This document shows, piece by piece, positions 6,529 to 45,283 of a stretch of 64,000 bases of DNA; positions within the stretch are counted from its first letter, which is position 1; each line of letters begins with the position of its first letter. Location of the stretch: the NCBI RefSeq assembly GCF_003054225.1, contig NZ_QBKQ01000002.1, forward strand, positions 186,001-250,000, given 5' to 3'. The notes under the pieces were generated by a model. That model worked only from the letters and a program-made list of their open reading frames with translations, was not told the DNA's origin and made no database searches. The position numbers and the translations under genes are program-made. Source of the stretch: Christiangramia gaetbulicola (lineage in GTDB: Bacteria > Bacteroidota > Bacteroidia > Flavobacteriales > Flavobacteriaceae).

Positions 6529-6624
6529 ATGGATTCTCAAACAAAAAGAGAAGATCAGGTGAAATTTGTGATCTTTTTAATTAGCGTTTTTCTAATACTC
6601 GTTATTACGTTTTTCAAAGCATAG
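6529..6624 (+). CDS. 31-residue single-pass membrane miniprotein
   Basis: A short ATG ORF with a charged N-terminus (MDSQTKREDQVK) followed by one strongly hydrophobic helix (FVIFLISVFLILVITFF) and a short KA tail, closed by TAG. The hydrophilic-then-transmembrane layout and amphipathic charge split are typical of small bacterial membrane proteins. Its stop lies 3 bp before the 3' end of the cyclase gene on the other strand. No homologue is known to me; it could be a chance ORF. Confidence 0.4.
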   Translation: MDSQTKREDQVKFVIFLISVFLILVITFFKA

Positions 6625-6627
6625 GAT

Positions 6628-7755: not shown

Positions 7756-8042
7756 AATATAATATCACAGCCATGAATAATTAGAAGAAATGAGTTTCGA
7801 GTATCTCTTTTCAGGATGTACCGTTAGATCACATCTTTTATTTGGTACAAATATCGAAACGGATAAATGATCTAATGAAAATTATATAGCAGCTGGTAGG
7901 TTAAAGCTTGTCTTAAAAGGAGAATCAAATTTATTAAATCTTCCAGATTTAGCTAAAATTAGCATAAAGTTTTTCTAATTAATTAGACAAAAATCCTTAA
8001 TCCAATAACTTTACTAGAGATAATCAACCAAAAATCAATAAA

Positions 8043-27333: not shown

Positions 27334-28545
27334 TCAAGAAAAACTTCGCTCTTTATGATAAGCCTTATCAATTCCATTGAGTTCGGTTGCCTCATCTACT
27401 CTGGTACCTCTTGTAAGGAATCCGGTAATTTTATATAGAATAAAAGTTCCTGCAAGTGAATAAATTATGGTCACTAAAACCACTGTTATTTGAGGGATCA
27501 TTTGATAGGGATTGCCGTAGAATAAACCTGCTTCTCCACTTATAGAAGGATCAGCAAAAAGGCCGGTAGCCAGGGCGCCCCAAATACCTACGAGGCCATG
27601 AATTCCAAAAACATCCAGCGTATCGTCATAGTTCAAAGCCTTTTTCAAGTGTACCACTCCGTAGTAACCCACCAATCCCGACACAAGTCCAATTATTAAA
27701 GCTCCATCTATGCCTACATAACCAGCCGCAGGCGTAATTCCCACCAGGCCTGAGATCGCACCAGAGGCCAATCCTAAAATTGAAGGTTTTTTCTTTGAAT
27801 ACCATTCTATAGCCATCCACGCGAGTCCTCCGGCGCACGCAGCAACATTGGTAACTAGAAAGGCATTCGCAGCAATCCCGTCTGCAGCAAGTTGACTACC
27901 GGCATTAAAACCAAACCAGCCAAACCATAAAAGTGCAGAGCCTAAAATGGTCAATTTTGAAGAAGAAGGGGAAGCCTCGAATAAATTTTTCTCTTTCCTT
28001 TTTCCCAGTAAAATTGATAATAGTAAACCTGCAACTCCGGCATTTATATGAATCACCGTGCCGCCTGCAAAATCCAGATCTCCCAATCCATTTAACAATC
28101 CTTCTCCCCAAATCATCCTCACTAGAGGAGCATAAACGAATAGCACCCAAAGAATAGAAAATATGATCCAGCTTTTAAATTTCAAACGTCCAACTACCGA
28201 CCCGCAAACCAGGGCAACAGCAATAGCGGCAAAAACACCCTGAAAGGCTACGAACAACATTTCTGGAATAGACCCAACTAACTGATCTACAGGAATGTTT
28301 TTCAAAAACAGATTTTTCATCGATCCAAAAATGGGATGCCCTTCTGGCCCAAAAGCTATGCTATAACCAGCGACTACCCATACAATAGTGGCCAAGCAAA
28401 AAGCGACATAGCTCATCCCAACCGTATTCATTACATTTTTTTTATTGGACAATCCTCCATAAAAAAGTGCTAGACCTGCCGGCGTCATTAGCATTACCAG
28501 TGCTGTTGCAATTAGCACCCAAGCGGTATCTCCTGAATTCATCAT
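27334..28545 (-). CDS. amt: Ammonium transporter
   Basis: A 403-residue Amt/Mep channel with eleven transmembrane helices. Family motifs include DTAWVLIATALVMLMTPAGL, LLWFGWFGFNAGS and LDVFGIHGLVGIWGAL, the last with one of the twin pore His. The C-terminal tail (GTRVDEATELNGIDKAYHKE) is the conserved element that contacts PII proteins, yet no glnK is adjacent. It follows the glutaminase gene by 7 bp, so both are probably one transcript. Confidence 0.94.
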   Translation of the reverse strand: MMNSGDTAWVLIATALVMLMTPAGLALFYGGLSNKKNVMNTVGMSYVAFCLATIVWVVAGYSIAFGPEGHPIFGSMKNLFLKNIPVDQLVGSIPEMLFVAFQGVFAAIAVALVCGSVVGRLKFKSWIIFSILWVLFVYAPLVRMIWGEGLLNGLGDLDFAGGTVIHINAGVAGLLLSILLGKRKEKNLFEASPSSSKLTILGSALLWFGWFGFNAGSQLAADGIAANAFLVTNVAACAGGLAWMAIEWYSKKKPSILGLASGAISGLVGITPAAGYVGIDGALIIGLVSGLVGYYGVVHLKKALNYDDTLDVFGIHGLVGIWGALATGLFADPSISGEAGLFYGNPYQMIPQITVVLVTIIYSLAGTFILYKITGFLTRGTRVDEATELNGIDKAYHKERSFS

Positions 28546-28552
28546 TTCTTCC

Positions 28553-30145
28553 TTATTTTTTAGTGGCTAAAACTTTAGACTTGTTGTGATCTTTATTTTG
28601 AGATTTGATCGCGTCCTCAAGGAGGCTTACGATATCTTTATTTTTAAATTTCTTGGCATCCTCCAAAGGAGTATTGCCCCATCGATCTTTTGGTGACAAC
28701 TGGACTTCTTTCTGAATAAAATGCTTGACCACTTCAATTTGATCTTCACAGGCCGCCAGATGAAGCGGCGTACGCCCATCATAATCGGAAATATTTGGAT
28801 TCACTCCTTCAGCCTCTAATCTTAATATTTCATCCAGGTCTCCGTGACTGGAAGATCTTATTAGCTCCATAACTTTTGAAGCCATCAATTCATTTTCTTT
28901 TTTTCGAGGATTTACCTTCGTTGAATTTCCCGTAAGCGAATCGTATTGATGAAAACTGAAACGTTCCACAAGGCGTTCGCAGAACTCCACACCTCGAACA
29001 CTATTTCCTACTTCATCTAATCTTGGCGACCAGATGCTTATTCCCATAAGATTTGGAATTACCAGCATAAGTGCTCCAGAAACTCCACTTTTGGCAGGTA
29101 ATCCTATTTTAAAAGCGAATTCACCGGAGAAATCGTACATCCCGCAGCTTAGCATTAGGGAAAGGCAATTCTGAACTGTAGAAGACTTGAAAATTGCTTT
29201 TCCGGTTAATGGATTTGTGCCTGCGTTTGCTAGAGTCGCGGCGGCAACCGAGAGATCATATGAACTGGATTCAATTGAACAACATTGAAAATAAAATTCC
29301 AGCGTTTCCGTAAGATTTGTGTTTTCTGGAAAGGCATTTTTTTCCCGCATGAAGTACGCTAAGGCAAAATTTCTATCGGCGGTTTGACGTTCAGATAAAT
29401 AAACCGAGTTATTAAAACTCATCTTTTTTCCGCCGCAGAGTGCCTGCCAGGTTTTGTTTACTTTATCAAAACGATCGGCACTATTGTTTTTATTATCGAT
29501 AAGCGAACAGCTCATCATAGCCCCTGCGTTTATCATAGGGTTATGGGGCAGACCTTTAAGATTCAAGGCCAATTCATTAAAAGATTGCCCGCTGGGCTCA
29601 CGGCCTACATGCGTATGTACTTTTTCCTCTCCCAACTCCTCTAGAGCCATACAGTAATTTATAGGCTTACAAGAGGATTGCAGGCAGAAATTAGTGTTTG
29701 AATCTCCAATGGAATATCGTTGACCGTCTACCGTACAAATTGAAATAGCAAACTGCTCTGGATCTACCCTTGCTAATTGAGGGATATAATCGGCTACTTC
29801 CCCTCCTTTATTTCTTTGAGTATCTAGAAAAATATCCTGAATTTGTTGACAGAAAACTTCAAAATCTGGGATAACCAGATTTTTCGAAAGCGATTTTTTA
29901 ACAAGTGCATTCTGCTGTAGAATTTCATTGAATTCGGTTTTCGCTATTTGATTTCCTTTCTTGATCTGCTGTCTAAACTGTGGCAGGTCTAAAAGTTCCC
30001 TCAATCTCGGATCATCCTGGAGAATACCAGCTCCAGATAACTGATTCAAAAATTTACCTGGATCTATACTGTTTTTGCCTTCAGGATCCAGCATTCTAAA
30101 AAGTGAATCAGCAGCATTACTATCAATTTGTGTGGTGGTAATCAT
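28553..30145 (-). CDS. glsA: Glutaminase with EF-hand-like and ankyrin domains
   Basis: A 530-residue glutaminase hydrolysing glutamine to glutamate and ammonia. An N-terminal about 100-residue helical region (FRMLDPEGKNSIDPGKFLNQ) resembles the EF-hand-like part of animal glutaminases. The serine-lyase-like core has the Ser157-x-x-Lys160 pair (CLQSSCKPINYCMALEELGE) and VGREPSGQSFNELALN. Two ankyrin repeats end the protein (DYDGRTPLHLAACEDQIEVV, then RWGNTPLEDAKKFKNKDIV). Ordinary bacterial GlsA is about 310 residues, so this is the long, kidney-type layout. Next to amt and a GSII gene. Confidence 0.92.
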   Translation of the reverse strand: MITTTQIDSNAADSLFRMLDPEGKNSIDPGKFLNQLSGAGILQDDPRLRELLDLPQFRQQIKKGNQIAKTEFNEILQQNALVKKSLSKNLVIPDFEVFCQQIQDIFLDTQRNKGGEVADYIPQLARVDPEQFAISICTVDGQRYSIGDSNTNFCLQSSCKPINYCMALEELGEEKVHTHVGREPSGQSFNELALNLKGLPHNPMINAGAMMSCSLIDNKNNSADRFDKVNKTWQALCGGKKMSFNNSVYLSERQTADRNFALAYFMREKNAFPENTNLTETLEFYFQCCSIESSSYDLSVAAATLANAGTNPLTGKAIFKSSTVQNCLSLMLSCGMYDFSGEFAFKIGLPAKSGVSGALMLVIPNLMGISIWSPRLDEVGNSVRGVEFCERLVERFSFHQYDSLTGNSTKVNPRKKENELMASKVMELIRSSSHGDLDEILRLEAEGVNPNISDYDGRTPLHLAACEDQIEVVKHFIQKEVQLSPKDRWGNTPLEDAKKFKNKDIVSLLEDAIKSQNKDHNKSKVLATKK

Positions 30146-30260: not shown

Positions 30261-31271
30261 TTAATAAGCCAATTCTTTTTCAGTAACCGTTTCAACGATT
30301 TTTGATGTGATTAGGTAAGGGCAGGCATTAGAAGCTGGACGTCTGTCTTCCAAATAACCTTTCCATTCATTTTCTACGGTTGTGATAGGAATTCTAATGG
30401 AAGCTCCACGATCACTTACTCCAAATGAAAATTGATCTATAGATTGAGTTTCATGCAGCCCTGTTAACCTTTCATGGTTCATGGAACCGTAGTTTGCAAT
30501 ATGATCCTGATGTGTGATATCTAAATTCTTAAGGATATTCTTGAAGTATTCCTCCCCGCCGACAGATCTCATTTGTTCATTGGAGAAATTAGCATGCATT
30601 CCAGAACCATTCCAATCGCCTTTTACCGGTTTGGGATGTAATTCGATTTCCAGACCATGCTTTTCAGCAACTCTAAAAAGTAAATATCTCGCCAGCCATA
30701 GATCATCTGCAGCTGCTTTTGCAGTTTTTCCTAATAGTTGAAATTCCCATTGCCCCACCATTACTTCGGCATTTATCCCGGTAATATCCAGACCGCAAGC
30801 CAGGCAAAGGTCAAGGTGTTCTTCAACAAAATCACGGGCAACGGCATTCTTGGTGCCAATACCACAATAATATTTACCCTGAGGCGCTGGGTATCCTTCT
30901 GTTGGGAAACCTAAAGGAAGTCCGTTTTTAGTAATAACGTATTCCTGTTCAAAACCGAACCAGAAGTCTAAAGCATCTTCATATTTGGCCCTGTTATTTG
31001 TCTTATGAGGTGTAAGGTCGGCATTGAAAACTTCACACATTACCAAATACCCGTTATCTCGGCCTGCATCTTTCCAGACCTTTACCGGTTTCAAAATACA
31101 ATCTGAAGAACTTCCCGCAGCCTGCTGGGTTGAACTTCCATCATAAGACCATAAAGGCAGGTTTTTAAGGGAAGGTTCTTCCTTTCCTGATATAATTTTT
31201 GTTTTACTTCTTAAGTTGGCTTCCGGCTTATAACCATCAAGCCAGATGTACTCACATTTAAACGTTTTCAT
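30261..31271 (-). CDS. Glutamine synthetase, eukaryote-like type II
   Basis: A 336-residue enzyme joining glutamate and ammonia with ATP. Short length and motifs (EYIWLDGYKPEANLRSKTK, LPLWSYDGSSTQQAAGSSSD, FGFEQEYVI, GINAEVMVGQWEFQ, GDWNGSGMHANFS) are those of GSII, the form typical of eukaryotes and some bacteria including many Bacteroidota. There is no adenylylation loop like that of GSI. It lies upstream of glutaminase and Amt, so synthesis, breakdown and ammonium uptake are genetically linked. Confidence 0.94.
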   Translation of the reverse strand: MKTFKCEYIWLDGYKPEANLRSKTKIISGKEEPSLKNLPLWSYDGSSTQQAAGSSSDCILKPVKVWKDAGRDNGYLVMCEVFNADLTPHKTNNRAKYEDALDFWFGFEQEYVITKNGLPLGFPTEGYPAPQGKYYCGIGTKNAVARDFVEEHLDLCLACGLDITGINAEVMVGQWEFQLLGKTAKAAADDLWLARYLLFRVAEKHGLEIELHPKPVKGDWNGSGMHANFSNEQMRSVGGEEYFKNILKNLDITHQDHIANYGSMNHERLTGLHETQSIDQFSFGVSDRGASIRIPITTVENEWKGYLEDRRPASNACPYLITSKIVETVTEKELAY

Positions 31272-31439: not shown

Positions 31440-31652
31440 TTACTTCCTAGGATTTGAATTATAGAATTGTGGGCTTTTTAATTTTGAACCTGTAACGATG
31501 GTCCTTTCCAATGGAATAAACTTGTAGGTATCATAATCAAGCTTCTTACGATGGCTATTTTCAGCTTTGGGCCCGGTTATATTTTTCTGTTGTGAAAATG
31601 CGCACAAGCTTAATAAGCTGATTACTAATGTTGTGAGAATGTTGGTTTTCAT
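31440..31652 (-). CDS. Small exported protein, unknown
   Basis: A 70-residue ORF with a clear signal peptide (NILTTLVISLLSLCAFSQQ) and a basic, Pro/Asn-rich mature part of about 50 residues (YDTYKFIPLERTIVTGSKLK). A TACATTTG -7 box lies at 31685-31692, about 33 bp upstream, which supports a real gene. No family recognised. Confidence 0.6.
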   Translation of the reverse strand: MKTNILTTLVISLLSLCAFSQQKNITGPKAENSHRKKLDYDTYKFIPLERTIVTGSKLKSPQFYNSNPRK

Positions 31653-31692: not shown

Positions 31693-31914
31693 GATTGAAT
31701 AAGAACCTTTTTATTAGAACTAAACCGTCCAAAAAATCAACATTCCCGACATACCTTATAACAATTCCGACAGGCTATTACATTTCCGACATATTGATCC
31801 TAAAAAACTGAATAACAGTATTTTGAAATAAGTTTTATTCAACATTAAAGAGGAAAAAGAATAGCGTTTTTTCTAGTCTGAAAACAAAAATGGTGTCCTG
31901 GAAAGAGGTATCTA

Positions 31915-33585
31915 TTATAACTCCTTTTGCTGCAAAGCTGATGGAGTTATTCCGAATTCTTTTTTAAAGGATTTCGAAAAATAGGAAGGATTGGAAAAAC
32001 CTGTTTGGTAGGCAATTTCAGAGATATTAAGTTCTCCTTCCAGAAGAAGTTCCTTGGCGCGGTGGAGGCGAACAGAAGAGATTAATTGTATGGGAGACTT
32101 GTTGGTAATTGCTTTTAGCTTTCGCTGTAACTGTCTATCACTAATCGCTAATTCATTACACAAGATCTCCACGCTGAAAAATTCATCCCCCAGATGATCA
32201 TCTATATGCTGGAGCACATTTTCCAGAAATGAATCGTTTTTAGGAAGCTGTAATTGATAAGTAGTATCAATTTGGAGATCAAGTTTGGATTCATCTATAA
32301 CTGAATACAGAATAATAGATTCACCTGTGTTCGGATCAAAGATGGTTTTATTTTGATAAAAGCTTAAGCCTGATCCAGAGAGAAGATATTTTACCGTTTG
32401 GGTAACCAGGATTTGGTTGGGATTAGCCTGTTCCAGGATAGACCCTATGGTTAGATTTGTTTCTTCACTTATAAAATGCGCTTCGTCTACTGGAGATTCC
32501 TTGATATGAACACCTAAAACAAGTTGGGCGTTTAAAGTTTTTGCGGTTTCAATTAGACCAAGACCACAATTTACCGCCTTACTGGGGCCTTCAAACGTAG
32601 CTATAAATTTTTGCCCATCGCTTTCAATAACTTTTCCCCGATACTGTTCGACATATTGGGTAAAAAATTCCTGCTGACTTTGATTAAGCCTCTGGTCTGA
32701 AATGATCTTTGCAGCCCCTATGGTAAAAAGTTGCTGCTCATAATTTTCAACGATATTTTCCTTTGAAATAAAGGCTTTCATGTGATCCAGTACTTCTTTC
32801 GTATTACCTACCCAAAAAAGATGGTCGTCTCCCTCCAGTTCTACAAACCTGGCTCCTTCAATCCTTTCGGCAATAAATCTTCCCTCTTCAATTTTTACGT
32901 CGATATCGTTAGTACGCTGCATGATGAGGGTAGGGACTTTGATGGATCCCAGAATATCAATGATATCTACCTCGGTATTCATTTTAGTTAGCACTAAAGC
33001 GGCACTAGGGCTGGCACCAGATCGAAGGTAATTTGCCAGCCAGTCCATAAAGACCCTATCATTCGCTTTGGAAGGCGCAAGAGACTCTAAGTTCATTTCT
33101 CCACTTCCCCAGCTGTTTTCAATCATATCATAAACCAGCTGGCGCTCTTCATTGGTAGGTGCCCAGGGATAATTTGGAGAATAAATTCGCTTAGCAAATA
33201 TTCCAAAAGTGATAAGAGAAATAGTACGTTTTGGATAGGTGGCTGCAAATAATGCCGAAACAGATCCCCCTTCTGAATGACCAAATAATACAGCTTTTTC
33301 TGAACCCACAGCATCCATCACCGCGCGTAGATCATCCATTCTTTCTTCTAAAGTAGAAAGCTCGGTAACACGATCTGAGAGTCCGGTTCCTCGTTTATCG
33401 AATAAAATAACACGAGCTATTTTACCTAGTTCAGTAAAAAAATTGACCAGTTCCGGGCATCCCCACATCCAGTCTATATTAGAAACCCATCCGGGGATAT
33501 ACACAAGATCTATAGCACCCGATCCAAAGACCTGATAAGCGATATTGATACGCGAATTTTTGGTGTATTGAGTTGTGGGTTTCAT
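31915..33585 (-). CDS. Alpha/beta-hydrolase + pseudo-cyclase + AraC fusion regulator
   Basis: A 556-residue three-domain protein. Residues 1-275: alpha/beta hydrolase with an apparently intact triad (Ser104 in FGHSEGG, Asp227 or Asp229, His255 in EGDDH). Residues 280-430: a domain that follows class III cyclases (KFIATFEGPSKAV, then GVHIKES and ILVTQTVKYLLSGSGL), but the first metal Asp is Gly, the second is Gln325 and the Asn-x3-Arg pair is missing, so it should be inactive. Residues 455-550: AraC DNA-binding domain (ISDRQLQRKLKAITNKSP, then ISEIAYQTGFSNPSYFSK). Likely a one-component regulator sensing a small ester or acyl ligand; target genes unknown. Confidence 0.85.
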   Translation of the reverse strand: MKPTTQYTKNSRINIAYQVFGSGAIDLVYIPGWVSNIDWMWGCPELVNFFTELGKIARVILFDKRGTGLSDRVTELSTLEERMDDLRAVMDAVGSEKAVLFGHSEGGSVSALFAATYPKRTISLITFGIFAKRIYSPNYPWAPTNEERQLVYDMIENSWGSGEMNLESLAPSKANDRVFMDWLANYLRSGASPSAALVLTKMNTEVDIIDILGSIKVPTLIMQRTNDIDVKIEEGRFIAERIEGARFVELEGDDHLFWVGNTKEVLDHMKAFISKENIVENYEQQLFTIGAAKIISDQRLNQSQQEFFTQYVEQYRGKVIESDGQKFIATFEGPSKAVNCGLGLIETAKTLNAQLVLGVHIKESPVDEAHFISEETNLTIGSILEQANPNQILVTQTVKYLLSGSGLSFYQNKTIFDPNTGESIILYSVIDESKLDLQIDTTYQLQLPKNDSFLENVLQHIDDHLGDEFFSVEILCNELAISDRQLQRKLKAITNKSPIQLISSVRLHRAKELLLEGELNISEIAYQTGFSNPSYFSKSFKKEFGITPSALQQKEL

Positions 33586-35347: not shown

Positions 35348-36574
35348 TTATTCTTTTTGGATGAAATAATGTAAACTATCCAGGGCTTTTTTATGATTTC
35401 TAACAAATGGATTTTTGTTATTCCATACATACCCGGCTAGAACGGCGCATATTTGTTTTTTGATCTGTGGTGAAGGACTCGGATGAAAGAAAATATCCTG
35501 TAACTTACCGGTATACCACTCTTTTACATAAGTGGAAAATACTTTGACACCTTTTCTGATATAGCCAGAATATTCTTTTTCCCAATCTACTTTTTCTCCT
35601 GCCAGTTCTCTCAAGGCAAGTTTGGCCGCCAGTAATCCAGATTCGGTTGCAAAAGCCACACCCGATGAAAATACGGGGTCAAGGAACTCGGCTGAGTTGC
35701 CCGTAAGAGCAAATCCCTTTCCATGAATGTACTTTACATTTCTGCTGATATTATTGAATTGGATTGGCTTGAATTCAAATGCGTAATCATCAAACCTTCC
35801 CTTGTAATAATCTGTTTCCTGAAGCATTTTTTTAAAATTTGCTTCCGCACTGCCAGTAAAACGGTCGAACCAGGAGTCTGGCCCTACAAAACCAAGACTG
35901 GATTTTCCATTTGAGAAAGGAATATACCAGAACCAGGTTTCGGTACTTAAAACTTCAAAAGTTATTTGTTCTCCTTCAATTCCCGTGGGCCTGGAGGTTT
36001 CGTTAATGTGGGTGAAAATGGAGGAGTGGTCGTATATTTTTGGTGGAGCTTCCAGGTCTAACTGTTTCGCCAGAACCCGACCGTTCCCGCTGGAATCTAT
36101 AATAAACTTGCACTTGATTACCTTTTCCTCCCCGGAATTATTTTTTGTTTTAATGGTCCAGGATCCGTTTTCGTGTAAGACAGAAGTTACTTCCGTTTCA
36201 AACCTGATATCTACACCGCGCGAAATAAGATCATCTGTAAGAACCTTATCAAAATCGGCCCTGGGAACCTGCCAGGTCCAATCCCAGCCTTCGCCAAACT
36301 TTTTACTGAAATCGAATTCAGCTACCTTTTCATTTCTGATAAAGCGAGCCCCAAACTTTTTCTGAAATCCATGTCTATTCAGGGTTTCCATGAAGCCAGC
36401 TTCCTCAAAATTATCCATGCACCTGGGAATCAGACTTTCCCCAATAGTGAATCGGGGAAATTGCTGTTTTTCAAGGATCAGAATTGATGCATCCTGTTGT
36501 TCTAAATAGCCTGCAGCAACACTTCCGGAGGGGCCGGCGCCGATGATCACTATATCCCTGATTTCAATATTCAT
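35348..36574 (-). CDS. Flavin-dependent halogenase-like oxidoreductase
   Basis: A 408-residue FAD enzyme: dinucleotide fold IVIIGAGPSGSVAAGYLE, then TIGESLIP, a Lys pair at 72-73 (GFQKKFGARF) where halogenases carry the catalytic Lys, and the WxWxIP motif typical of flavin halogenases (W214-F-W-Y-I-P219). It may halogenate the phenolic polyene made by the divergent operon; hydroxylation or another oxidation is the alternative. The frame runs 18 codons further upstream, but a -7 box at 36597-36604 lies inside that extension, so ATG 36574 is preferred. Confidence 0.83.
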   Translation of the reverse strand: MNIEIRDIVIIGAGPSGSVAAGYLEQQDASILILEKQQFPRFTIGESLIPRCMDNFEEAGFMETLNRHGFQKKFGARFIRNEKVAEFDFSKKFGEGWDWTWQVPRADFDKVLTDDLISRGVDIRFETEVTSVLHENGSWTIKTKNNSGEEKVIKCKFIIDSSGNGRVLAKQLDLEAPPKIYDHSSIFTHINETSRPTGIEGEQITFEVLSTETWFWYIPFSNGKSSLGFVGPDSWFDRFTGSAEANFKKMLQETDYYKGRFDDYAFEFKPIQFNNISRNVKYIHGKGFALTGNSAEFLDPVFSSGVAFATESGLLAAKLALRELAGEKVDWEKEYSGYIRKGVKVFSTYVKEWYTGKLQDIFFHPSPSPQIKKQICAVLAGYVWNNKNPFVRNHKKALDSLHYFIQKE

Positions 36575-36596
36575 TAGAATTAATGCAGTCTTTGCG

Positions 36597-36604
36597 CAAA
36601 CATA
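36597..36604 (-). promoter_or_regulatory. -7 box (TATGTTTG on minus strand) of the halogenase-lpxR unit
   Basis: Exact TAnnTTTG match 23 bp before the chosen halogenase ATG; it also decides that start. Confidence 0.55.
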
Positions 36605-36640
36605 AACAGAAACGGGGAATTGGAGCAAGCTATTTTATTG

Positions 36641-36673
36641 AAAAAAAGCCCTAACCGGTTTGTTAGGACTTTT
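36641..36673 (-). terminator. Orphan intrinsic terminator
   Basis: A 12-bp stem with one mismatch (GTTAGGACTTTT at 36662-36673 with AAAAGCCCTAAC at 36644-36655), loop of 6, and seven T on the minus strand. No protein gene ends here. Confidence 0.7.
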
Positions 36674-36785
36674 CATGAGATATTAGCAATAGATTAAAAT
36701 AAAAAGGTCGGTGGTGGTTAGAAAAGGAAGATCGATATCAAATCTGAAAATCCGTTTACAGCGACCTTTATTATTAAATTAATCA
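36641..36785 (-). ncRNA. Candidate small RNA upstream of the halogenase gene
   Basis: On the minus strand a TAAATTTG box at 36790-36797 could start a transcript near 36785. It would contain an 8-bp stem (AAAGGTCG/CGACCTTT, 36762-36769 with 36703-36710) and end at a strong hairpin with seven T at 36641-36673, just before the separate halogenase promoter. There is no ORF in it. A free-standing promoter-structure-terminator set of about 145 nt is what a small RNA looks like, but this is inference. Confidence 0.4.
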
Positions 36786-36822
36786 TTCTCAAATTTAGAT
36801 AACCAGAATTGAATTTTAAGAC

Positions 36823-36848
36823 ATGGTTGGGATATCTAACCATTTTTT
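36823..36848 (+). terminator. Plus-strand hairpin with T6 tail
   Basis: ATGGTTGG/CTAACCAT (8 bp, one G-T wobble) around a 5-nt loop, followed by TTTTTT. It could be a terminator for an unseen plus transcript, an attenuator, or an operator palindrome; no plus-strand gene precedes it. Confidence 0.45.
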
Positions 36849-36972
36849 AAAGTCGGCTTGATATTGGTAAGATTAAATTTATCTTCTCTTAAAATTGAGG
36901 GGCTTTGTCATAGGTTTTGATAAAATTTTAGAGATATAAAGGATGATCATCTGCTGTGTTTTCGAATTATGC

Positions 36973-36980
36973 TACATTTG
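36973..36980 (+). promoter_or_regulatory. -7 box (TACATTTG) of the aryl-polyene operon
   Basis: Exact TAnnTTTG match 53 bp before the TAL ATG at 37033. All 17 downstream genes abut or overlap closely, so this may drive the whole operon. Confidence 0.6.
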
Positions 36981-37032
36981 TTAAAAGCTTTAACAGCGAC
37001 CCCAAACCTTTAATTATTTGCAGAAACGGTAT

Positions 37033-38571
37033 ATGCTGAATTTAGACAATGCCCTCGATTTTAATGATTTTTACCGGGTACTATTTGAGAATGAAAAGAT
37101 TGAACTAGGAAAAAAGACTCAGGTAAGACTCGAAAAAAGTTATCATTTCCTAAGGGAATTTTCCCAAAACAAGATTATTTATGGCGTAAATACTGGCTTT
37201 GGACCCATGGCTCAGTATAAGATCAATGCTGAAGATAAGATCAAATTACAACTGAACCTTATTAGAAGCCATTCTACCGGTGCTGGTGCAATAATGGAAC
37301 CATTATATGTGAAGTCCCTGATGCTTGCCCGCTTAAATACCTTATGTCTGGGGAAGTCCGGAATTCATAGCTCTATTGCCGAAACCCTGATCCAACTTAT
37401 AAATAAGGAGGTGACCCCGGTGATATTCGAACACGGTGGGGTAGGAGCATCGGGAGACCTCGTCCAACTGGCTCATCTTGCCCTGGTGCTAATTGGCGAA
37501 GGTGAAGTGATCTATAATGGAGAAAGAAGGAAGACAAATGATGTTTTTCAGGAACTAGATATTAAGCCGGCCGAAATAAAAATTAGAGAAGGCCTGGCGG
37601 TGATGAACGGTACCTCTGCCATGACGGGAATTGGGATCGTAAACCTTATCTATTCTCAGCGATTATTGAATTGGGCAGTTTTCTGTAGTTCTGTGATCAA
37701 TGAGATTGTAGAAGCATATGACGATCACCTTTCTAAAGAACTTAATTCCTCTAAACTTCATAAAGGGCAGCAGAAGATCGCCGAAGAAATGCGCAAGCAT
37801 CTTAAAGATTCAAAGCTTACGCGCGATCGTAATGATCACCTTTATTCGAATGGGGCAGATAAGAATAGTTTTTTCAAAGAGAAGGTGCAGGAATATTATA
37901 GTTTGAGATGTGTTCCGCAAATTTTAGGACCGGTTTCAGATACACTTGAAAACTCCCTAAAGATCCTGATAGAAGAAGTTAACTCTGCCAACGACAATCC
38001 TATCATAGATGTGGAGACTGAACATGTCTATCACGGAGGGAATTTCCATGGAGATTATGTTTCGCTGGAAATGGACAAATTGAGACTGGCCATTACCAAA
38101 ACGTCCATGCTGGCAGAGAGGCAGCTTAATTATTTATTGAATGCCAAGCTTAATGATATCCTACCTCCATTTGTGAATATGGGTACACTGGGGCTTAATT
38201 TCGGGATGCAGGGAGCTCAATTTACCGCGGTTTCGACCACGGCCGAGAACCAGATGCTTTCCAATTCAATGTACGTGCATAGTATTCCGAATAACAACGA
38301 CAACCAGGATATAGTGAGTATGGGGGCTAATTCGGCGAATATGACCAAAAAGGTTATAGATAATAGTTTCGAGGTGCTTTCAACTGAATTGGCCACGATC
38401 GTTCAGGCCTTATATTTCCTTGATTTTGATGAGAGATTATCTTCGGCTACCAGGTCTAAATTAAAGCAATTAAGAGAGATCATTCCGCAGATTAAAGAAG
38501 ACCGGCCATTATACAAGGAAATAAAAGATTTAAAGGAATTTATTAAGAATAACGAAGCTTACTCATCATGA
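37033..38571 (+). CDS. tal: Tyrosine ammonia-lyase
   Basis: A 512-residue member of the MIO ammonia-lyase family. The Ala139-Ser140-Gly141 triad that forms the MIO cofactor is present (HGGVGASGDLVQLAHLALVL), as are Tyr50 in IIYGVNTGFGPMAQY and the NLIRSHSTG selectivity region, which matches the characterised Flavobacterium johnsoniae TAL as I recall it. It makes 4-coumarate (and ammonia) from tyrosine, the starter unit for aryl polyenes and flexirubins. An in-frame TTG at 37018 is possible but ATG 37033 fits the family. First gene of the operon. Confidence 0.92.
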   Translation: MLNLDNALDFNDFYRVLFENEKIELGKKTQVRLEKSYHFLREFSQNKIIYGVNTGFGPMAQYKINAEDKIKLQLNLIRSHSTGAGAIMEPLYVKSLMLARLNTLCLGKSGIHSSIAETLIQLINKEVTPVIFEHGGVGASGDLVQLAHLALVLIGEGEVIYNGERRKTNDVFQELDIKPAEIKIREGLAVMNGTSAMTGIGIVNLIYSQRLLNWAVFCSSVINEIVEAYDDHLSKELNSSKLHKGQQKIAEEMRKHLKDSKLTRDRNDHLYSNGADKNSFFKEKVQEYYSLRCVPQILGPVSDTLENSLKILIEEVNSANDNPIIDVETEHVYHGGNFHGDYVSLEMDKLRLAITKTSMLAERQLNYLLNAKLNDILPPFVNMGTLGLNFGMQGAQFTAVSTTAENQMLSNSMYVHSIPNNNDNQDIVSMGANSANMTKKVIDNSFEVLSTELATIVQALYFLDFDERLSSATRSKLKQLREIIPQIKEDRPLYKEIKDLKEFIKNNEAYSS

Positions 38572-39299
38572 AATACGCACTGGTAACCGGTGGATCAAGA
38601 GGAATAGGAAAGGCGATATGTTTAAAGATCGCTGCTGAACTGAAGTATAACATCCTGCTTAATTATAATTCGAATACCGAAGCTGCTGAAGAAACCCAGG
38701 TTGAAATCGAAACATTCGGAGTTAAATGTGATCTTCTGAAATTTAATGTGGCAGATGCTGATGCCGTCCAGAATTCGCTTGAAAACTGGAAGGCTGAAAA
38801 TACTGAGGCTAAAATCGAGATCCTGGTGAACAACGCGGGAATTACCAAAGATGGCCTATTCATTTTTACGAATAAAGAATCGTGGAATTCGGTTATCAAC
38901 ACTAGTTTGAATGGATTCTATAATGTGACGCAGGCCGTTCTGAAAGATATGCTGAGAAGCAGGTATGGTCGGGTGATAAATATAGTTTCACTTTCAGGAT
39001 TAAAAGGAAATCCCGGGCAGGTGAATTATTCGGCAGCAAAAGGAGCAGTGATCTCTGCTACTAAAGCCCTGGCCCAGGAGATAGGGAAACGTAAAGTAAC
39101 CGTGAACGCAGTTGCTCCCGGCTTTATTCAGTCTGATATGACCAAAGATTTCGATGAAGAAGAATTTAAAAAACATATTCCTTTAAATCGATTTGGCGAA
39201 GCCGAAGAAGTTGCTGAACTAGTTAGTTTCCTGGCTTCTGATAGGTCGTCCTATATCACCGGCGAGGTGATCAATATAAACGGAGGATTATACTCTTAG
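38568..39299 (+). CDS. 3-oxoacyl-ACP reductase (SDR, FabG-like)
   Basis: A 243-residue short-chain dehydrogenase: NADPH site VTGGSRGIGKAI, NNAGITKDG, catalytic Ser in VSLSGLKGNPGQ and Tyr/Lys in YSAAKGAV, end ITGEVININGGLYS. It should reduce the 3-keto group after each elongation of the polyene. It overlaps the TAL gene by 4 bp. Confidence 0.9.
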   Translation: MKYALVTGGSRGIGKAICLKIAAELKYNILLNYNSNTEAAEETQVEIETFGVKCDLLKFNVADADAVQNSLENWKAENTEAKIEILVNNAGITKDGLFIFTNKESWNSVINTSLNGFYNVTQAVLKDMLRSRYGRVINIVSLSGLKGNPGQVNYSAAKGAVISATKALAQEIGKRKVTVNAVAPGFIQSDMTKDFDEEEFKKHIPLNRFGEAEEVAELVSFLASDRSSYITGEVININGGLYS

Positions 39300-39303
39300 A
39301 ATT

Positions 39304-40182
39304 ATGGCGACCTGGAAAGGAAAATCTCGGGGTACGCTCTTAGGCTTCAAAATCTATGTGCAAATAATTAAAAAGACAGGGCTTTATTCGGCCTATTTTG
39401 TGCTTCTTTTCGTGGCTCTTTATTTTATATTTTTCTCCTTTACTTCTACCAGGAGTACCTACTATCTTTTTAGAAAAAGACTGGGGTATTCACCAATTAA
39501 CGCGGCCTTTAATGTTTACCGGAGTTATTTCACTTTTGGCAGAATACAGCTGGACAGGATCGCTATCACCAGTGGTTTAAAACATAAATTCACTTTCGAA
39601 TTTGACGGAGTAGAACATATAAACAACCTGCTCAAACAAAATAAAGGCGGAATTTTACTAACCGCCCATATTGGCAATTTCAACCTGGCCAAGCATTTTT
39701 TTGAAGAAAGGCATTCAGAAGCTGTGGTGAACCTTGTCATAACCGATTTTGAACACAGGCAGATAAAGAATTATCTCGAATCTGTTACCGGTACTTCTGA
39801 GGTCAAGATCATTGTACTTAAAGAAGATCTTAGTCATATCTTTAAAATGAAGGAAGCTTTAGCTAATAATGAATTACTGGTATTTGCGGCAGACCGTTAT
39901 TTGAAACATTCCAAGACCTATAAAGCAGAGTTTCTTGGCGAGCAGGTGAAATTTCCGCAGGGACCTTTCAAACTTGCAGGTAGAAATAAGATACCTGTGC
40001 TATTCGTTCATTTAATGCGGGAAAAGAATTTTCACTATCATTTCTATGCCAGGCCTTACAAACCTGAAAAATTCACTCCTCAGGAAATTTTAAAATATTA
40101 TCTTGACGACCTTGAAAAAATGGTAAAAAAATATCCTCATCAGTGGTATAACTACTACGATTACTGGAACGATTTTAGTTAA
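39304..40182 (+). CDS. LpxL/HtrB-like lysophospholipid-type acyltransferase
   Basis: A 292-residue membrane protein with an N-terminal transmembrane helix (YFVLLFVALYFIFF) and the acyltransferase motif HIGNFN inside GGILLTAHIGNFNLAKHFF. A second conserved part is LVFAADRYLKHSKTYKAEFL. Related enzymes add the last acyl chain to lipid A; in aryl-polyene clusters such a protein is thought to link the polyene acid to a lipid or glycerol anchor. Substrate inferred. Confidence 0.82.
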   Translation: MATWKGKSRGTLLGFKIYVQIIKKTGLYSAYFVLLFVALYFIFFSFTSTRSTYYLFRKRLGYSPINAAFNVYRSYFTFGRIQLDRIAITSGLKHKFTFEFDGVEHINNLLKQNKGGILLTAHIGNFNLAKHFFEERHSEAVVNLVITDFEHRQIKNYLESVTGTSEVKIIVLKEDLSHIFKMKEALANNELLVFAADRYLKHSKTYKAEFLGEQVKFPQGPFKLAGRNKIPVLFVHLMREKNFHYHFYARPYKPEKFTPQEILKYYLDDLEKMVKKYPHQWYNYYDYWNDFS

Positions 40183-40184
40183 AA

Positions 40185-40634
40185 ATGGCAGAAAACCTAT
40201 TACATCATCCAATTACCTCGCATGAGGAGATCATAAATCTTATTCCCCAGAAAGAACCATTTGTCTTTGTCGACACTCTTTATGAATACACCGCGTTAAC
40301 CGGTGTTACGGGGTTTACAGTTCCAGAAAAGAATGTTTTGCTTGATGGAAATAAGCTTACCGAAAGCGGATTGATAGAACATATGGCGCAAAGCATGTCT
40401 CTGCATAGAGGTTACCAGGGTTCTCTTAGTGGGAATACAAAGCCGAAAACAGGATTTATTGGAGTCATCAAAACCGTAGAGATCTTTTCTCAGCCAGAAG
40501 TTGGTGAGGTTCTAAAAACTTACGTAGAGATCCTGCATGAGATCATGAATGTGACTTCAGTTTCGGCCAGGACCGAGAATGAAAAAGGGGTAGTGATCGC
40601 AACTTCTGAAATGAAAACCGTAACGGTAGAATGA
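40185..40634 (+). CDS. FabZ-like hot-dog 3-hydroxyacyl-ACP dehydratase
   Basis: A 149-residue single hot-dog protein: IINLIPQKEPFVFVDTLYEY is the FabZ/FabA-type start and LIEHMAQSMSLHRGYQ carries the catalytic Glu helix. The His-containing loop is less clear than in FabZ. It probably dehydrates the 3-hydroxy intermediate to a trans double bond, working with the second dehydratase at 46689. Starts 2 bp after the acyltransferase. Confidence 0.75.
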   Translation: MAENLLHHPITSHEEIINLIPQKEPFVFVDTLYEYTALTGVTGFTVPEKNVLLDGNKLTESGLIEHMAQSMSLHRGYQGSLSGNTKPKTGFIGVIKTVEIFSQPEVGEVLKTYVEILHEIMNVTSVSARTENEKGVVIATSEMKTVTVE

Positions 40635-41053
40635 AGCAACAGGGATTGCAGACCACTACCAGGATGAAAGTACGCTTTCATGAATGCGATCCCTTACAGA
40701 TCGTATGGCATGGCAATTATTACAAATATTTTGAAGAAGGTAGGGAAGATTTTTGCAGGCAACATGGTATCTCTTACCTGGATGCGAAAAGAAATGGTTT
40801 TGCCACGCCTATTGTAAAAACAGAATGTGAGCATAAACTACCTTTAAAATATGGCGACGAATTTGAAGTAGAAACCACTTTTGTAAATTCTGAAGCTGCC
40901 AAGATCATTTTTGAATACAAAATTTTTTCCGAAAGCAAATTGATCTGCACTGGCAGGACGACCCAGGTTTTTACCGATAAAAATTCTGAATTGGTACTTA
41001 ACAATCCACCGTTTTTCTTAGATTGGAAAATGAAAATGGGATTGATTAAATGA
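40631..41053 (+). CDS. 4-hydroxybenzoyl-CoA-type thioesterase
   Basis: A 140-residue hot-dog thioesterase of the YbgC/4HBT kind: RFHECDPLQIVWHGNYYKYF contains the Asp and His/Tyr expected for this group, followed by EEGREDFCRQHGISYLD. It may release the finished polyene acid or clear misprimed chains from the ACP. Four-base overlap with both neighbours. Confidence 0.85.
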   Translation: MKQQGLQTTTRMKVRFHECDPLQIVWHGNYYKYFEEGREDFCRQHGISYLDAKRNGFATPIVKTECEHKLPLKYGDEFEVETTFVNSEAAKIIFEYKIFSESKLICTGRTTQVFTDKNSELVLNNPPFFLDWKMKMGLIK

Positions 41054-42192
41054 GCAGAAACTACCTTTTAAGTGATTCGATAATTTCTCCACTAGGCTTT
41101 AGCACGAAAGAAAATCTTGCTGCTATTCTTAGATCAGAATCAGCTTTAAAATGGCATAATAATTCAAGATTTTTCGAAAATGGATATTACGCTGGGTTGA
41201 TCGATGAATCAATCATAGATGATAAGTTCAATGAACTTGGAAGTCCTGATGATTATACCAAACTTGAGAAAATGATTATCCTGGCTATTCAGCAGGTGCT
41301 GGATGAGCAGCCGGATCTTGAGATCGAAAATACCGGACTTATCATTTCCACCACTAAAGGAAATATAGATGAGCTTGAGAAAAGCAAATTTTCACCTGAT
41401 AGAGTCTATCTCTGGAAAATGGCTGAAGTTATCGCAGATTTCTTTGGATTTAAAACCAAGCCTATCGTAGTTTCTAATGCCTGTATATCTGGTGGTTTAG
41501 CCATTAAGACGGCGAACGATCTTATTTCAACCGGAAGATTTATTAATGCTATTGTTGCCGGTGGAGATCTAATTTCAGACTTTGTGTTATCTGGTTTTCA
41601 ATCTTTTCAGGCTATAAGCCCTGAACCATGCCGTCCTTTTTCAAACGATAGGCAAGGGGTAAGCCTTGGTGAAGCAGCAGCGGCAATTTTAATTGGTCCA
41701 GCTAATTCAGATGCTTCTGAAAAAGTAGCTTATTTAGATGCTACCACGGCCAATGATGCCAATCACATTTCCGGCCCCAGTAGGACTGGCGAAGGACTTT
41801 TTCAAAGTATTTCAAGACTGTTTCAGCATAACAATATTGAGCCTTCTCAAATAGATTTTCTCTCAGCACACGGGACGGCAACGATCTACAATGATGAAAT
41901 GGAAGCCATCGCCTTTAACAGGGCTGGTTTAGACCATGTACCGGTTAATAGTTTTAAAGGTTATTATGGCCATACTCTTGGAACTTCAGCTTTGATAGAA
42001 AGTATACTCACCAAGCATAGTCTTTTGAGTGGTCAATTATTCAATTCTATAAATTATTCAGCTTCGGGAGTATCACAGGACCTGAACATTATAGAGAAGA
42101 ATAAAAAAAAGGATTTGACACTGGCGTTAAAATCTGCCTCTGGTTTTGGAGGTTGTAACCTGGCTATGCTGCTTAAAAAGGGAGGTATATGA
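41050..42192 (+). CDS. Beta-ketoacyl-ACP synthase (complete active site)
   Basis: A 380-residue thiolase-fold ketosynthase. Cys145 (VVSNACISGGLAIK), His in SAHGTATIYNDEMEA and His in YYGHTLGTSALIES form the Cys-His-His triad. It condenses malonyl-ACP with the growing chain. It lies next to a Cys-less partner at 42189, suggesting a KS/partner heterodimer as in type II polyene synthases. Confidence 0.88.
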   Translation: MSRNYLLSDSIISPLGFSTKENLAAILRSESALKWHNNSRFFENGYYAGLIDESIIDDKFNELGSPDDYTKLEKMIILAIQQVLDEQPDLEIENTGLIISTTKGNIDELEKSKFSPDRVYLWKMAEVIADFFGFKTKPIVVSNACISGGLAIKTANDLISTGRFINAIVAGGDLISDFVLSGFQSFQAISPEPCRPFSNDRQGVSLGEAAAAILIGPANSDASEKVAYLDATTANDANHISGPSRTGEGLFQSISRLFQHNNIEPSQIDFLSAHGTATIYNDEMEAIAFNRAGLDHVPVNSFKGYYGHTLGTSALIESILTKHSLLSGQLFNSINYSASGVSQDLNIIEKNKKKDLTLALKSASGFGGCNLAMLLKKGGI

Positions 42193-42794
42193 GTCAGAAT
42201 CTATTCATAAGAAATTCCGTAGTGATCAGAGATTCCAGGGTCTGGAGAGATGGAGAGCTTATTTTTAAAAATGAAACCGAAACTACCTTATCTAAATTCC
42301 TTAAGGCTATTTACAAGCATCAGAACCTGAAGTACCCGAAATTCTTTAAAATGGATAGTCTTTCTAAACTGGGATATTTAGGAGCGGAGATATTGATCAA
42401 TGGTGAAATTCAGGATAAAAATACTGCGCTGGTATTTTCTAATTCTGCCTCCAGTCTCGAAACCGATGAGGCTTATGCTCAAACCATGCAGGATTTTCCT
42501 TCACCGGCGCTTTTTGTTTATACGCTACCTAATATAATGCTTGGCGAAATAAGCATCAGGCATCAACTTAGATCTGAAAATGTTTTCTTTGTATCGAGAG
42601 AATTCGATGCGTCCCTTTATATTGACTATTCCAAGGCCTTATTTCAGGAGAAAAAAGCTGATAACGTGCTTTGTGGATGGGTGGACTTGCACAATAACGA
42701 TTATGATGTATTTTTGTGGCAAATTGCCCGTAGCGGCGGAATTGATTTTAACGAAGAGGAGCTAAAGAAATTATACTTACCTACCCATGAGTGA
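42189..42794 (+). CDS. Short Cys-less ketosynthase-like protein
   Basis: A 201-residue protein seen in Bacteroidota pigment clusters between a KS and an ACP. The segment ALVFSNSASSLETDEAYAQT is followed by FVYTLPNIMLGEISIRHQLR, which follows the N-terminal half of a thiolase fold, but there is no active-site Cys and no C-terminal half. It may be a structural partner of the ketosynthase upstream. Overlaps both neighbours. Confidence 0.65.
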   Translation: MSQNLFIRNSVVIRDSRVWRDGELIFKNETETTLSKFLKAIYKHQNLKYPKFFKMDSLSKLGYLGAEILINGEIQDKNTALVFSNSASSLETDEAYAQTMQDFPSPALFVYTLPNIMLGEISIRHQLRSENVFFVSREFDASLYIDYSKALFQEKKADNVLCGWVDLHNNDYDVFLWQIARSGGIDFNEEELKKLYLPTHE

Positions 42795-43044
42795 CCTGCA
42801 TACCGAATTAAAAAAAAGCATTATTGAACAACTCAACCTCGAAGATATGGAGGTGAGCGAAATAGAAAATGATGAGCATCTTTTTGGTGATGGCCTAGGC
42901 CTGGACAGCATTGATGCTCTTGAACTTATCGTGCTCCTGGAAAAAGATTATGGTATTAAACTTACCGATCCCAACCAGGGCAAGGAGATTTTCAATTCCA
43001 TTAATACCATGGCCGATTTTATCGAGAAAAACAGGACACGCTAA
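42787..43044 (+). CDS. Acyl carrier protein
   Basis: An 85-residue acidic protein with the phosphopantetheine site in GDGLGLDSIDALELIVLLEK (Ser of DSI). It carries the polyene intermediates as thioesters. Needs a 4'-phosphopantetheinyl transferase, which is not in this window. Overlaps the upstream gene by 8 bp. Confidence 0.93.
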   Translation: MSDLHTELKKSIIEQLNLEDMEVSEIENDEHLFGDGLGLDSIDALELIVLLEKDYGIKLTDPNQGKEIFNSINTMADFIEKNRTR

Positions 43045-43047
43045 TTT

Positions 43048-44232
43048 ATGAGAGGCGTAGCCGTTACCGGAATGGGACTTGTTTCTGCTATTGGAAATAA
43101 TATTGTAGAGGCTCACACTTCCCTTAAGAACGGCAAGGAAGGTATTAGTTTACCCGAAATTCTAAAAACCGGTCTAAAAGACCTGCCGGTTGGCGAAATA
43201 AAGCTCAGTAATTCTGATATAAGTAATATTCTGCAGCTGCCAGACGATCATTCCTATACCCGGGCAGCATTGATCGGTACTCTGGCCATAAAAGAATTGC
43301 TTTCGAATAGCGGTTTTGATAACTTTCCAGAAGATACCGGATTTATCTCCGGTACAAGTATCGGTGGAATCGATAAGACCGAAGAGCATTTTCACAATTA
43401 TAAAGATCATCCGGAATATCGCAAATATATTCAGGCGCAGCATCCGGGTTTTACTACCGAAAAGATCGCGGAATATTTTGGATTGAAAGAAGTGGTAACT
43501 ACCATTAGTACCGCATGTTCATCTTCTGCCAATGCCATCATGATGGGCGCAAGGATGATTGAATCAGGGAAACTGAAACGAGTGATCGTTGGAGGTAGCG
43601 ATTGTTTGACTAAGTTTACCCTTAATGGATTTAATTCTTTAAAGATTCTTTCCGATCAAAAAAGCAAACCTTTCGATAACGACCGTAACGGTTTAAACCT
43701 GGGCGAAGCAGCTGCCTATATTATGCTTGAAGCTAGAGAGCTTATTGGAGATAAAAAGATTCTGGGTAGGGTTTCAGGATTTGGAAATGCCAATGATGCT
43801 TTTCATCAAACCGCATCTTCCGAAAATGGAGAAGGTGCTTACCTGGCCATTTCTCAAGCTATTAAGAAAGCTAAACTATCAGCTTCAGAGATAGATTTTA
43901 TAAATGCCCACGGAACCGGGACCAGGAATAATGACCTATCAGAAAGCGTTGCTTTGAAAAGGATTTTTGGTGATACTGTTCCAGATTTTAGCTCTACCAA
44001 AGCATTCACAGGCCATACACTTGGAGCCGCTGGCGCGGTGGAGGCGATCTTCAGTCTCCTGGCGATCCAGAATGCTGAGATCTATCCTAATCTTAATTTT
44101 AATTCTGAAATGGCAGAAACTGGATTGGTACCGGTAACCGAATTTCAGAAGAAAGAGATCAGGACGGTACTTTCCAATTCCTTTGGTTTCGGCGGAAATT
44201 GTACTTCTTTAATATTTCAGAAAGATGAGTAA
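43048..44232 (+). CDS. Beta-ketoacyl-ACP synthase, FabF-like
   Basis: A 394-residue ketosynthase with Cys157 (TTISTACSSSANAIMMGARM), His in NAHGTGTRNNDLSES and His in FTGHTLGAAGAVEA; GFGGNCTSLIF closes the fold. It is the second condensing enzyme of the operon and is paired with the Cys-less homologue at 44225. Confidence 0.93.
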   Translation: MRGVAVTGMGLVSAIGNNIVEAHTSLKNGKEGISLPEILKTGLKDLPVGEIKLSNSDISNILQLPDDHSYTRAALIGTLAIKELLSNSGFDNFPEDTGFISGTSIGGIDKTEEHFHNYKDHPEYRKYIQAQHPGFTTEKIAEYFGLKEVVTTISTACSSSANAIMMGARMIESGKLKRVIVGGSDCLTKFTLNGFNSLKILSDQKSKPFDNDRNGLNLGEAAAYIMLEARELIGDKKILGRVSGFGNANDAFHQTASSENGEGAYLAISQAIKKAKLSASEIDFINAHGTGTRNNDLSESVALKRIFGDTVPDFSSTKAFTGHTLGAAGAVEAIFSLLAIQNAEIYPNLNFNSEMAETGLVPVTEFQKKEIRTVLSNSFGFGGNCTSLIFQKDE

Positions 44233-45283
44233 GATTTATATCAATGGCATATCGTCTGTCTCTCCACAATCTGAAGATATCTATGAGAATGAAATTCCGC
44301 AGACCTATAATGAAAATATACTCCCAGCTATAAATATAGATTACAAATCGCTGATAAAGCCAATGATGCTCAGGCGTATGTCTAAAGCGGTGAAAATGGG
44401 ACTTTACTGCTCTAAAAAGGCTTTACAGGAGGCTGGGATTGCAGACCCTGGCGCTATTCTAGTAGGTACAGGTCAGGGTTGTATGCAGGATACCGAAAAA
44501 TTTATGAGTAATATGCTGGAATCTGAAGAAGGTCTTTTGAGTCCTACTTCCTTTATACAATCCACGCATAATACGGTTGCAGGCCAGATAGCCCTGGATC
44601 TAAAGTGTAAGGGACACAATATGACCTTTACCCAGAACTCCGCTTCCTTTGAAACGGCTCTTCTGGATACTGTTTTACTTTTTGAAGATGAGCAAGTGCA
44701 GAATATCCTGGTAGGTGGAGTAGATGAGACCTCCGAAGAATTTACTGGATTTCAAAAACTCGACGGGCAGATCAAAGAGGCGAGTATTAATAATCTGGAT
44801 CTATTTGCTTCTGGAACTTCGGGTACTATTATTTCAGAATCTGCAGCTTTCTTTACATTAAGTTCTGAAAAGAATGACAGCACATATGCTGAATTTAAGG
44901 ATGTGCAAATTATAAATAAGGTTGAAAAAAGCGACCTGATCTCAAAAATCGAGGAATTTCTTTCTAGGAATAAATTGCGGCTTGCAGATATCGATGCAGT
45001 GATACTTGGAAGAAATGGGGATAGTAGATTCGACCATTATTATGAAGATCTGCAGCAAGGATTGTTCGCAGAAAAATGCCAGGTAGGATTTAAACATCTG
45101 GTAGGAGACAATAATTCGGTTTCATCATATGCCTTCTGGCTGGCTTCCAAAATTCTGAAAGAAAAGAGGATCTCACAGATCTTTAAATTGAATGCTGTAA
45201 ATTGCAATGCTCCCCGGAATATTTTGATCTATAATCAATACCTGGGCAGAAACCACGGTCTAATTCTTTTACAAAGCCATTGA
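44225..45283 (+). CDS. Chain-length-factor-like ketosynthase partner
   Basis: A 352-residue thiolase-fold protein. At the active-site position TxSTACSS of true KS it reads TFTQNSASFETALLD, so the Cys is lost, and the two His motifs are not visible. Such inactive partners set chain length in type II polyketide systems, and heterodimers of this kind are known for aryl polyenes. It overlaps the FabF-like gene by 8 bp, supporting one complex. Confidence 0.78.
   Translation: MSKIYINGISSVSPQSEDIYENEIPQTYNENILPAINIDYKSLIKPMMLRRMSKAVKMGLYCSKKALQEAGIADPGAILVGTGQGCMQDTEKFMSNMLESEEGLLSPTSFIQSTHNTVAGQIALDLKCKGHNMTFTQNSASFETALLDTVLLFEDEQVQNILVGGVDETSEEFTGFQKLDGQIKEASINNLDLFASGTSGTIISESAAFFTLSSEKNDSTYAEFKDVQIINKVEKSDLISKIEEFLSRNKLRLADIDAVILGRNGDSRFDHYYEDLQQGLFAEKCQVGFKHLVGDNNSVSSYAFWLASKILKEKRISQIFKLNAVNCNAPRNILIYNQYLGRNHGLILLQSH

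Follow-up and report, generated by a model that had tools for sequence, protein, structure and literature searches.

What does a bacterial protein sense, and which genes does it control, when a single chain joins an alpha/beta-hydrolase, a domain resembling a class III nucleotide cyclase and an AraC-type DNA-binding domain? A gene of this kind lies in the window (the whole 64,000-nucleotide stretch of Christiangramia gaetbulicola DNA that was analysed), and had been proposed to encode a one-component regulator with a hydrolase sensor and an inactive cyclase domain. The gene occupies positions 31915..33585, as originally placed; its strand, for which no assignment had been given, is minus, and an ATG at 33585 opens a reading frame of 556 aa. 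We consider it probable that the product is a locally acting one-component regulator, in which the hydrolase serves as sensor, the dead cyclase domain as scaffold and the AraC domain as the part that acts on nearby boxes to switch neighbouring genes.

Three domains on one chain

Both ends of the protein are recognized by Pfam. Residues 27-265 match an alpha/beta-hydrolase with a score over the gathering cut-off (Abhydrolase_1, 1.3e-12), within a sensor domain placed at residues 1-275 (32761..33585, minus strand). Residues 475-553 match HTH_18 at 2.8e-25, with 88.9 bits against a gathering score of 33.6, within an AraC/XylS two-HTH DNA-binding domain at residues 450-553 (31927..32238, minus strand). 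No Pfam match was obtained between the hydrolase and HTH_18. The NCBIfam model LipJ (Rv1900c, a lipase/adenylate cyclase) aligns with residues 3-411 at 245.6 bits, short of its cut-off of 800. An AlphaFold model of the full-length regulator has a pLDDT of 83.5, and all 50 PDB matches listed for it are proteins of the alpha/beta-hydrolase fold.

The middle region, residues 280-433 (32287..32748, minus strand), is a degenerate class III cyclase-fold domain as judged by sequence, profile and fold matches. Searched alone as a single sequence, it finds 1ybt, the cyclase domain of Rv1900c, at E 4.2e-9, and Ma1120 more weakly; a profile of the 43 aligned middle domains finds 1ybt at E 6.5e-17 and Ma1120 at 6e-12; and when the AlphaFold model of this domain (pLDDT 90.6) is compared with the PDB, 1ybt comes out on top, at E 2.0e-11 and with a TM of 0.78 on the query. 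The best fit in all three types of search is the class III cyclase fold of Rv1900c, which bears out the originally claimed order of hydrolase, cyclase-like and AraC domains; another fold for the middle domain was rejected on the strength of the family profile and the fold match to 1ybt.

A scan of genome contigs yielded 46 loci, five of which were left out of the alignment as fragments or HTH-only matches. The other 41 contributed 42 proteins, two of them from L054, and together with the window protein these form an alignment of 43, within which the L043 sequence lacks its start because the contig ends there. HTH_18 and Abhydrolase_1 are matched by all 43 at E up to 0.01. The identical three-part order is found in the 42 homologues, and the regulator is therefore not a chance, spurious or chimeric open reading frame. 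At L054 (positions 4995-8760) two copies of the regulator stand in tandem, and in the second the nucleophile-adjacent His103 is replaced by Gln.

These homologues are rare and patchy, and belong mostly to Bacteroidota and Balneolota; L028 and L031, on contigs labelled Alphaproteobacteria, may be mis-binned. Matches were found in 3 of 24 genomes of a genus sample at 1e-60 (full-length in 2), in 13 of 199 genomes of a family sample at E up to 1e-40 (full-length in 5, including the window's own), and in a single genome of 395 in a class sample at E up to 1e-120, namely the window's own.

The hydrolase had been described as retaining an apparently intact Ser-Asp-His triad, and this triad, Ser104-Asp227-His255, proves to be invariant, with each of Ser104, Asp227, Asp229 and His255 present in 43 of 43 aligned proteins. 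The catalytic positions of the cyclase domain were mapped by alignment with L013, a hydrolase-cyclase described below, and three proteobacterial hydrolase-cyclases. The regulator has Lys293 at the first metal Asp position, Gln325 at the second, Glu321 at that of the purine Lys, Leu378 at the Asn/His position and Ser382 at that of the transition-state Arg. The predicted loss of both metal Asp residues and of the Asn-Arg pair is thereby upheld, as is Gln325 at the second metal site; the first, which had been read as Gly, is instead Lys293. Gly290 was rejected for this position on the evidence of the motifs TVLFGQIV of L046 and TILFTDIV of L013, which put it at 293.

Over the 891 pairs of the 43 proteins with overall identity below 80%, the hydrolase has a mean pairwise identity of 78.4%, compared with 62.2% in the HTH and 35.7% in the middle domain; the sensor is thus much more constrained than the relay. 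A middle domain might nevertheless still bind a nucleotide (ATP, GTP or cyclic) without catalysis, in which case the regulator would integrate two signals. The cyclase fold is indeed retained in the AlphaFold model compared with 1ybt, and the stretches FEGPSKAV and VKxLLSGxGL are well conserved among the aligned middle domains, but the metal, purine and transition-state residues have all been replaced and the domain drifts far more than the hydrolase, which leads us to regard nucleotide binding as unlikely. That the modelled fold is kept while the sequence drifts fits a role for the dead cyclase domain as a dimer or relay module.

Neighbours of the hydrolase by sequence or fold include esterases, Est816, KAI2/D14 and RsbQ. 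Given these neighbours and the invariant triad, it is plausible that the hydrolase is a receptor for an ester or lactone, as had been suggested. RsbQ and the plant receptors KAI2/D14 have in common with the regulator an alpha/beta-hydrolase fold with an intact Ser-Asp-His triad; they act via a separate partner protein, whereas the output of the regulator is fused on the same chain.

Relatives with and without a cyclase

The Mycobacterium tuberculosis protein Rv1900c (LipJ) and relatives of it in Pseudomonadota likewise have a homologous hydrolase followed by a homologous cyclase-fold domain, and plasmid relatives show about 40% identity over 74% of the regulator. Unlike Rv1900c, the regulator lacks the cyclase residues, scores under the LipJ cut-off and carries an AraC domain. 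Two proteins appear to stand between these states. The L013 protein is a hydrolase-cyclase with FTD, K and GDG motifs and without an HTH (Guanylate_cyc, 3.2e-14). The L058 protein, known from one contig of a Saprospiraceae metagenome-assembled genome, has the AraC domain and keeps both metal Asp residues; it alone among the 43 aligned proteins matches Guanylate_cyc at E up to 0.01, with 22.0 bits against a cut-off of 21.9. In a phylum sample, the L058 protein was matched in 6 of 395 genomes at 1e-50, full-length in 5.

A FastTree phylogeny of hydrolase plus middle domain, which we rooted on proteobacterial cyclases, places L013 as sister to the AraC clade and L058 as the first branch of that clade, with support of 0.999 for the clade including L058 and 0.916 for the remainder, that is, for the position of L058. 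This arrangement suggests a series running from a hydrolase-intact cyclase (L013) through a form with an added AraC domain and the metal Asp residues (L058) to the dead cyclase. The regulator probably originated from an Rv1900c-like hydrolase-cyclase that gained an AraC domain and then lost catalysis. An IQ-TREE phylogeny of the hydrolase alone, whose bootstrap had not settled, also supports the AraC clade (99/96), gives L058 no resolved position, and groups L013 with L014 and L016 (94/88), both without a cyclase. Because L013 groups there with cyclase-less hydrolase-AraC proteins, the HTH may have been gained, or the cyclase lost, more than once. Among the cyclase-less proteins, L017 is recognized by Pfam as a hydrolase plus HTH_18; L014 and L016 were read by eye as hydrolase plus HTH without a cyclase, L015, L018 and L019 resemble the L017 type in length and share the cyclase gap, and L020 and L076 were placed by eye in a group of their own, distant from the others.

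A parallel arrangement occurs in two alphaproteobacterial plasmid proteins, from Shinella and Phyllobacterium (L132 and L136), in which a hydrolase and a cyclase-like domain are followed by a LuxR-type domain (GerE, 3.1e-18 and 1.5e-16) and in which Guanylate_cyc finds no match. They have in common with the regulator the homologous hydrolase, the loss of the first metal Asp and a C-terminal HTH, and they differ in that this HTH is of the GerE/LuxR type, presumably of separate origin. The second metal Asp is still present in the Shinella protein, and the Phyllobacterium protein no longer has the nucleophile Ser. Both proteins are annotated as hydrolases only, and downstream of each lies a carboxymuconolactone decarboxylase family gene, then an NTF2 family gene. 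Rv0386-like mycobacterial proteins also combine a class III cyclase domain with an HTH on one chain; unlike the regulator, they have no hydrolase, contain an ATPase region and carry a LuxR-type HTH. Our literature searches for the hydrolase-cyclase-AraC architecture found no papers, except that a looser one, asking for at least three of four terms, gave 45. Two-domain proteins, with cyclase domains beside alpha/beta-hydrolase or HTH domains, are listed in PMC4886424.

Tandem repeats downstream of the regulator gene

The gap 3′ of the gene was found by reading to contain TTCCGACA repeats, which correspond to TGTCGGAA on the coding strand. Within the whole window, TGTCGGAA has 2 matches against 1.5 expected, which is not above chance; it is unusual because of its recurrence at other loci, and not because of its frequency in the window. 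In a survey of 41 loci (40 fetched loci plus the window), 33 exact copies of TGTCGGAA occur within 700 bp downstream on the coding strand, distributed over 19 of the 41 loci, with none on the other strand of the same 700 bp and none in the upstream regions of up to 500 bp. A position weight matrix derived from these exact-word sites, and so partly circular, scores 71 boxes at 10 bits or more in the first 400 bp downstream, versus 1 on the reverse strand, and 28 of the 41 loci have at least one such box there on the coding strand. Boxes are mostly spaced by 19-22 bp, with up to four in a row. The window itself has four tandem 18-bp boxes with the consensus TGTCGGAAWTGTTMTA, a candidate operator at 31713..31791 on the minus strand, between the regulator and the downstream genes; they start at 31791, 31772, 31751 and 31730 and score 22.8, 21.7, 14.9 and 11.8 bits, respectively. 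In the 400 bp upstream of the 41 loci the matrix gives 2 reverse boxes that reach 10 bits and no forward one, and autoregulation through upstream boxes was rejected on this count.

Eight further regulator loci were considered, of which two duplicated training loci and were dropped; the other six, outside the training set, have 70-86% DNA likeness to the training loci. Four of them carry boxes of at least 12 bits just downstream on the coding strand, and L010 and L011 have no box of that strength. Among nine related loci without the triple fusion, none has any box.

We infer that these tandem direct repeats beside the regulator gene, which are a new finding, are candidate binding sites for it. 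The two-HTH C-terminal domain is common to the regulator and to AraC/XylS proteins, in which the sensor is a cupin-like domain in place of a hydrolase and a dead cyclase, and the I1/I2 sites of AraC are likewise tandem direct repeats about 21 bp apart. The original proposal that DNA binding has replaced the cyclase output finds support in the apparent evolutionary series and in this conserved, operator-like repeat beside the gene.

Alternatively, the boxes might be sites of another factor or a non-regulatory repeat, with the targets of the regulator lying elsewhere. Such an explanation would accommodate the 13 of 41 loci in which no box reaches 10 bits in the first 400 bp downstream, as well as some distant matches to a two-box pattern, though these are no commoner than those of a backwards control. 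Recognition helices look alike in loci with and without boxes, and a search of the box-less loci for other direct repeats established none. Against a separate origin of the boxes, they are strand-specific, they are found beside the regulator in several bacterial families, and at L129, described below, additional neighbours have box groups of their own ahead of them. Within the genus, moreover, 2 of 24 genomes contain the two-box pattern, at the regulator locus only, and these are also the two with the full regulator; the backwards pattern occurs once each in 6 other genomes. We therefore consider it very unlikely that the boxes are unrelated to the regulator.

The two-box pattern matches 12 of 199 genomes in the family sample versus about 33 for the backwards control, and the matches beyond G000 and G108 are scattered, unlike the box; of the five genomes in this sample that encode a full-length regulator, G177, G179 and G195 have no two-box match. 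Among the 36 carrier genomes of the 41 loci, the pattern is present in 16 and absent from 20. Of its 30 matches in carrier genomes, 22, from 11 genomes, are no more than about 12 kb away from the regulator, and the other 8 look like chance, the backwards control giving 11. A stricter two-box pattern matched 1 of 25 genomes and was too strict.

Neighbouring genes and a proposed mechanism

The first gene after the boxes in the window, and the first candidate target, encodes a small secreted-looking peptide of 70 aa (31440..31652, signal peptide by eye). It is followed by three further candidate targets, identified by Pfam: a glutamine synthetase (30261..31271), a glutaminase with EF-hand and ankyrin repeats (28553..30145) and an ammonium transporter (27334..28545), all four genes being on the minus strand. 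The flanking of a glutaminase by EF-hand and ankyrin domains resembles the layout of animal glutaminases. Glutamine synthetase also lies 3′ of boxes in L022 and L051. A 12-kb stretch at L129, which comes from the same Reichenbachiella faecimaris genome as L037, contains six groups of boxes ahead of four single genes or gene runs, and the final run consists of glutamine synthetase, glutaminase, ammonium transporter and peptide, named by their likeness to the window genes. The box groups there stand ahead of several gene runs, so the differing gene sets found downstream in different genomes look like parts of one local regulon. G108, whose locus is that of Saonia L023, has another two-box site, in front of the gene for a small secreted-looking protein.

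In 38 of 41 loci the downstream gene is co-directional with the regulator; among other adjacent pairs the figure is 185 of 240, so that the excess over background is modest (p 0.02). The genes themselves, some of them named by eye, differ by locus and include small secreted-looking peptides and crystallin-like repeats, a set in which a SprB-repeat lipoprotein, weakly cytochrome c-like, accompanies YceI and DUF5777, and Lipoprotein_15, DUF285 and cadherin surface proteins. In L040, L046 and L047, contractile injection system genes follow the regulator (Pvc16_N by Pfam in L040; tail-sheath-like by eye).

The small peptides form a family with repeated GPxxKN(xKPW) motifs (window 31440-31652, L138-L140, L143-L145 and L155), without a Pfam match in the two members tested. 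The window peptide is shorter than the copies from the same genus, with the first repeat missing as if lost between direct repeats. The peptide is not tied to the regulator alone, being present in 18 of 199 family genomes; it was found in 12 of 19 genomes searched, 18 of them reached via regulator loci and one a same-genus genome. Five of seven inspected peptide loci without an adjoining regulator are preceded by a histidine kinase and a response regulator, as judged by eye. Elsewhere in the window, positions 35348-46660 encode an oxidoreductase, an aromatic ammonia lyase, ketosynthases, a thioesterase and genes related to these, by eye resembling a flexirubin/aryl polyene cluster.

The variety of neighbours bears on a further alternative, namely that the protein is chiefly a metabolic enzyme, its hydrolase turning over a substrate and its HTH coupling the amount of that substrate to the expression of adjacent genes. 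The triad conserved throughout the 43 proteins and the many esterases among the fold neighbours would be expected of such an enzyme. However, the neighbouring genes vary widely between genomes while the hydrolase stays 78% identical, so that no one pathway fits all carrier genomes, and we have seen no recurring neighbour that makes or uses an ester. A primarily metabolic role accordingly seems improbable to us.

The reading that we favour, a locally acting one-component regulator, builds on what is observed: the domain order, the unvarying triad, the loss of cyclase residues, the conservation of the boxes and their association with the gene. A small molecule would be bound, and perhaps slowly hydrolysed, by the hydrolase domain, and the signal would be relayed through the catalytically dead cyclase domain, which would be a scaffold for dimer formation or relay. 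The tandem TGTCGGAAWTGTTMTA boxes that separate the regulator gene from the adjoining genes would then be bound by the C-terminal AraC domains of the putative dimer, and the box-headed neighbours would be switched, most likely by activation rather than repression; in the window these would be the genes for the small secreted-looking peptide, the glutamine synthetase, the glutaminase and the ammonium transporter. The candidate operator with its candidate local targets, the apparent intermediates, the cyclase-less hydrolase-AraC proteins and the LuxR parallel are all additions to the original prediction.

More speculatively, the protein might be a receptor that consumes its ligand and carries its own transcription factor on the same chain; a single conserved signal molecule would be sensed and hydrolysed throughout by the 78%-identical hydrolase and, after the cAMP output had been discarded, would control a portable cassette of regulator and tandem operators into which varied genes (surface, nitrogen-cycling and injection-system) are plugged in carriers across Bacteroidota and Balneolota; this is a possibility that we entertain only tentatively. 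The case illustrates how an enzyme that makes a second messenger can become a transcription factor, with apparent surviving intermediates and the sensor almost unchanged. To our knowledge, no natural ligand is known for hydrolases of the Rv1900c type; through the boxes at 31713-31791 the signal of this hydrolase could be approached directly, and perhaps that of Rv1900c-type hydrolases as a class.
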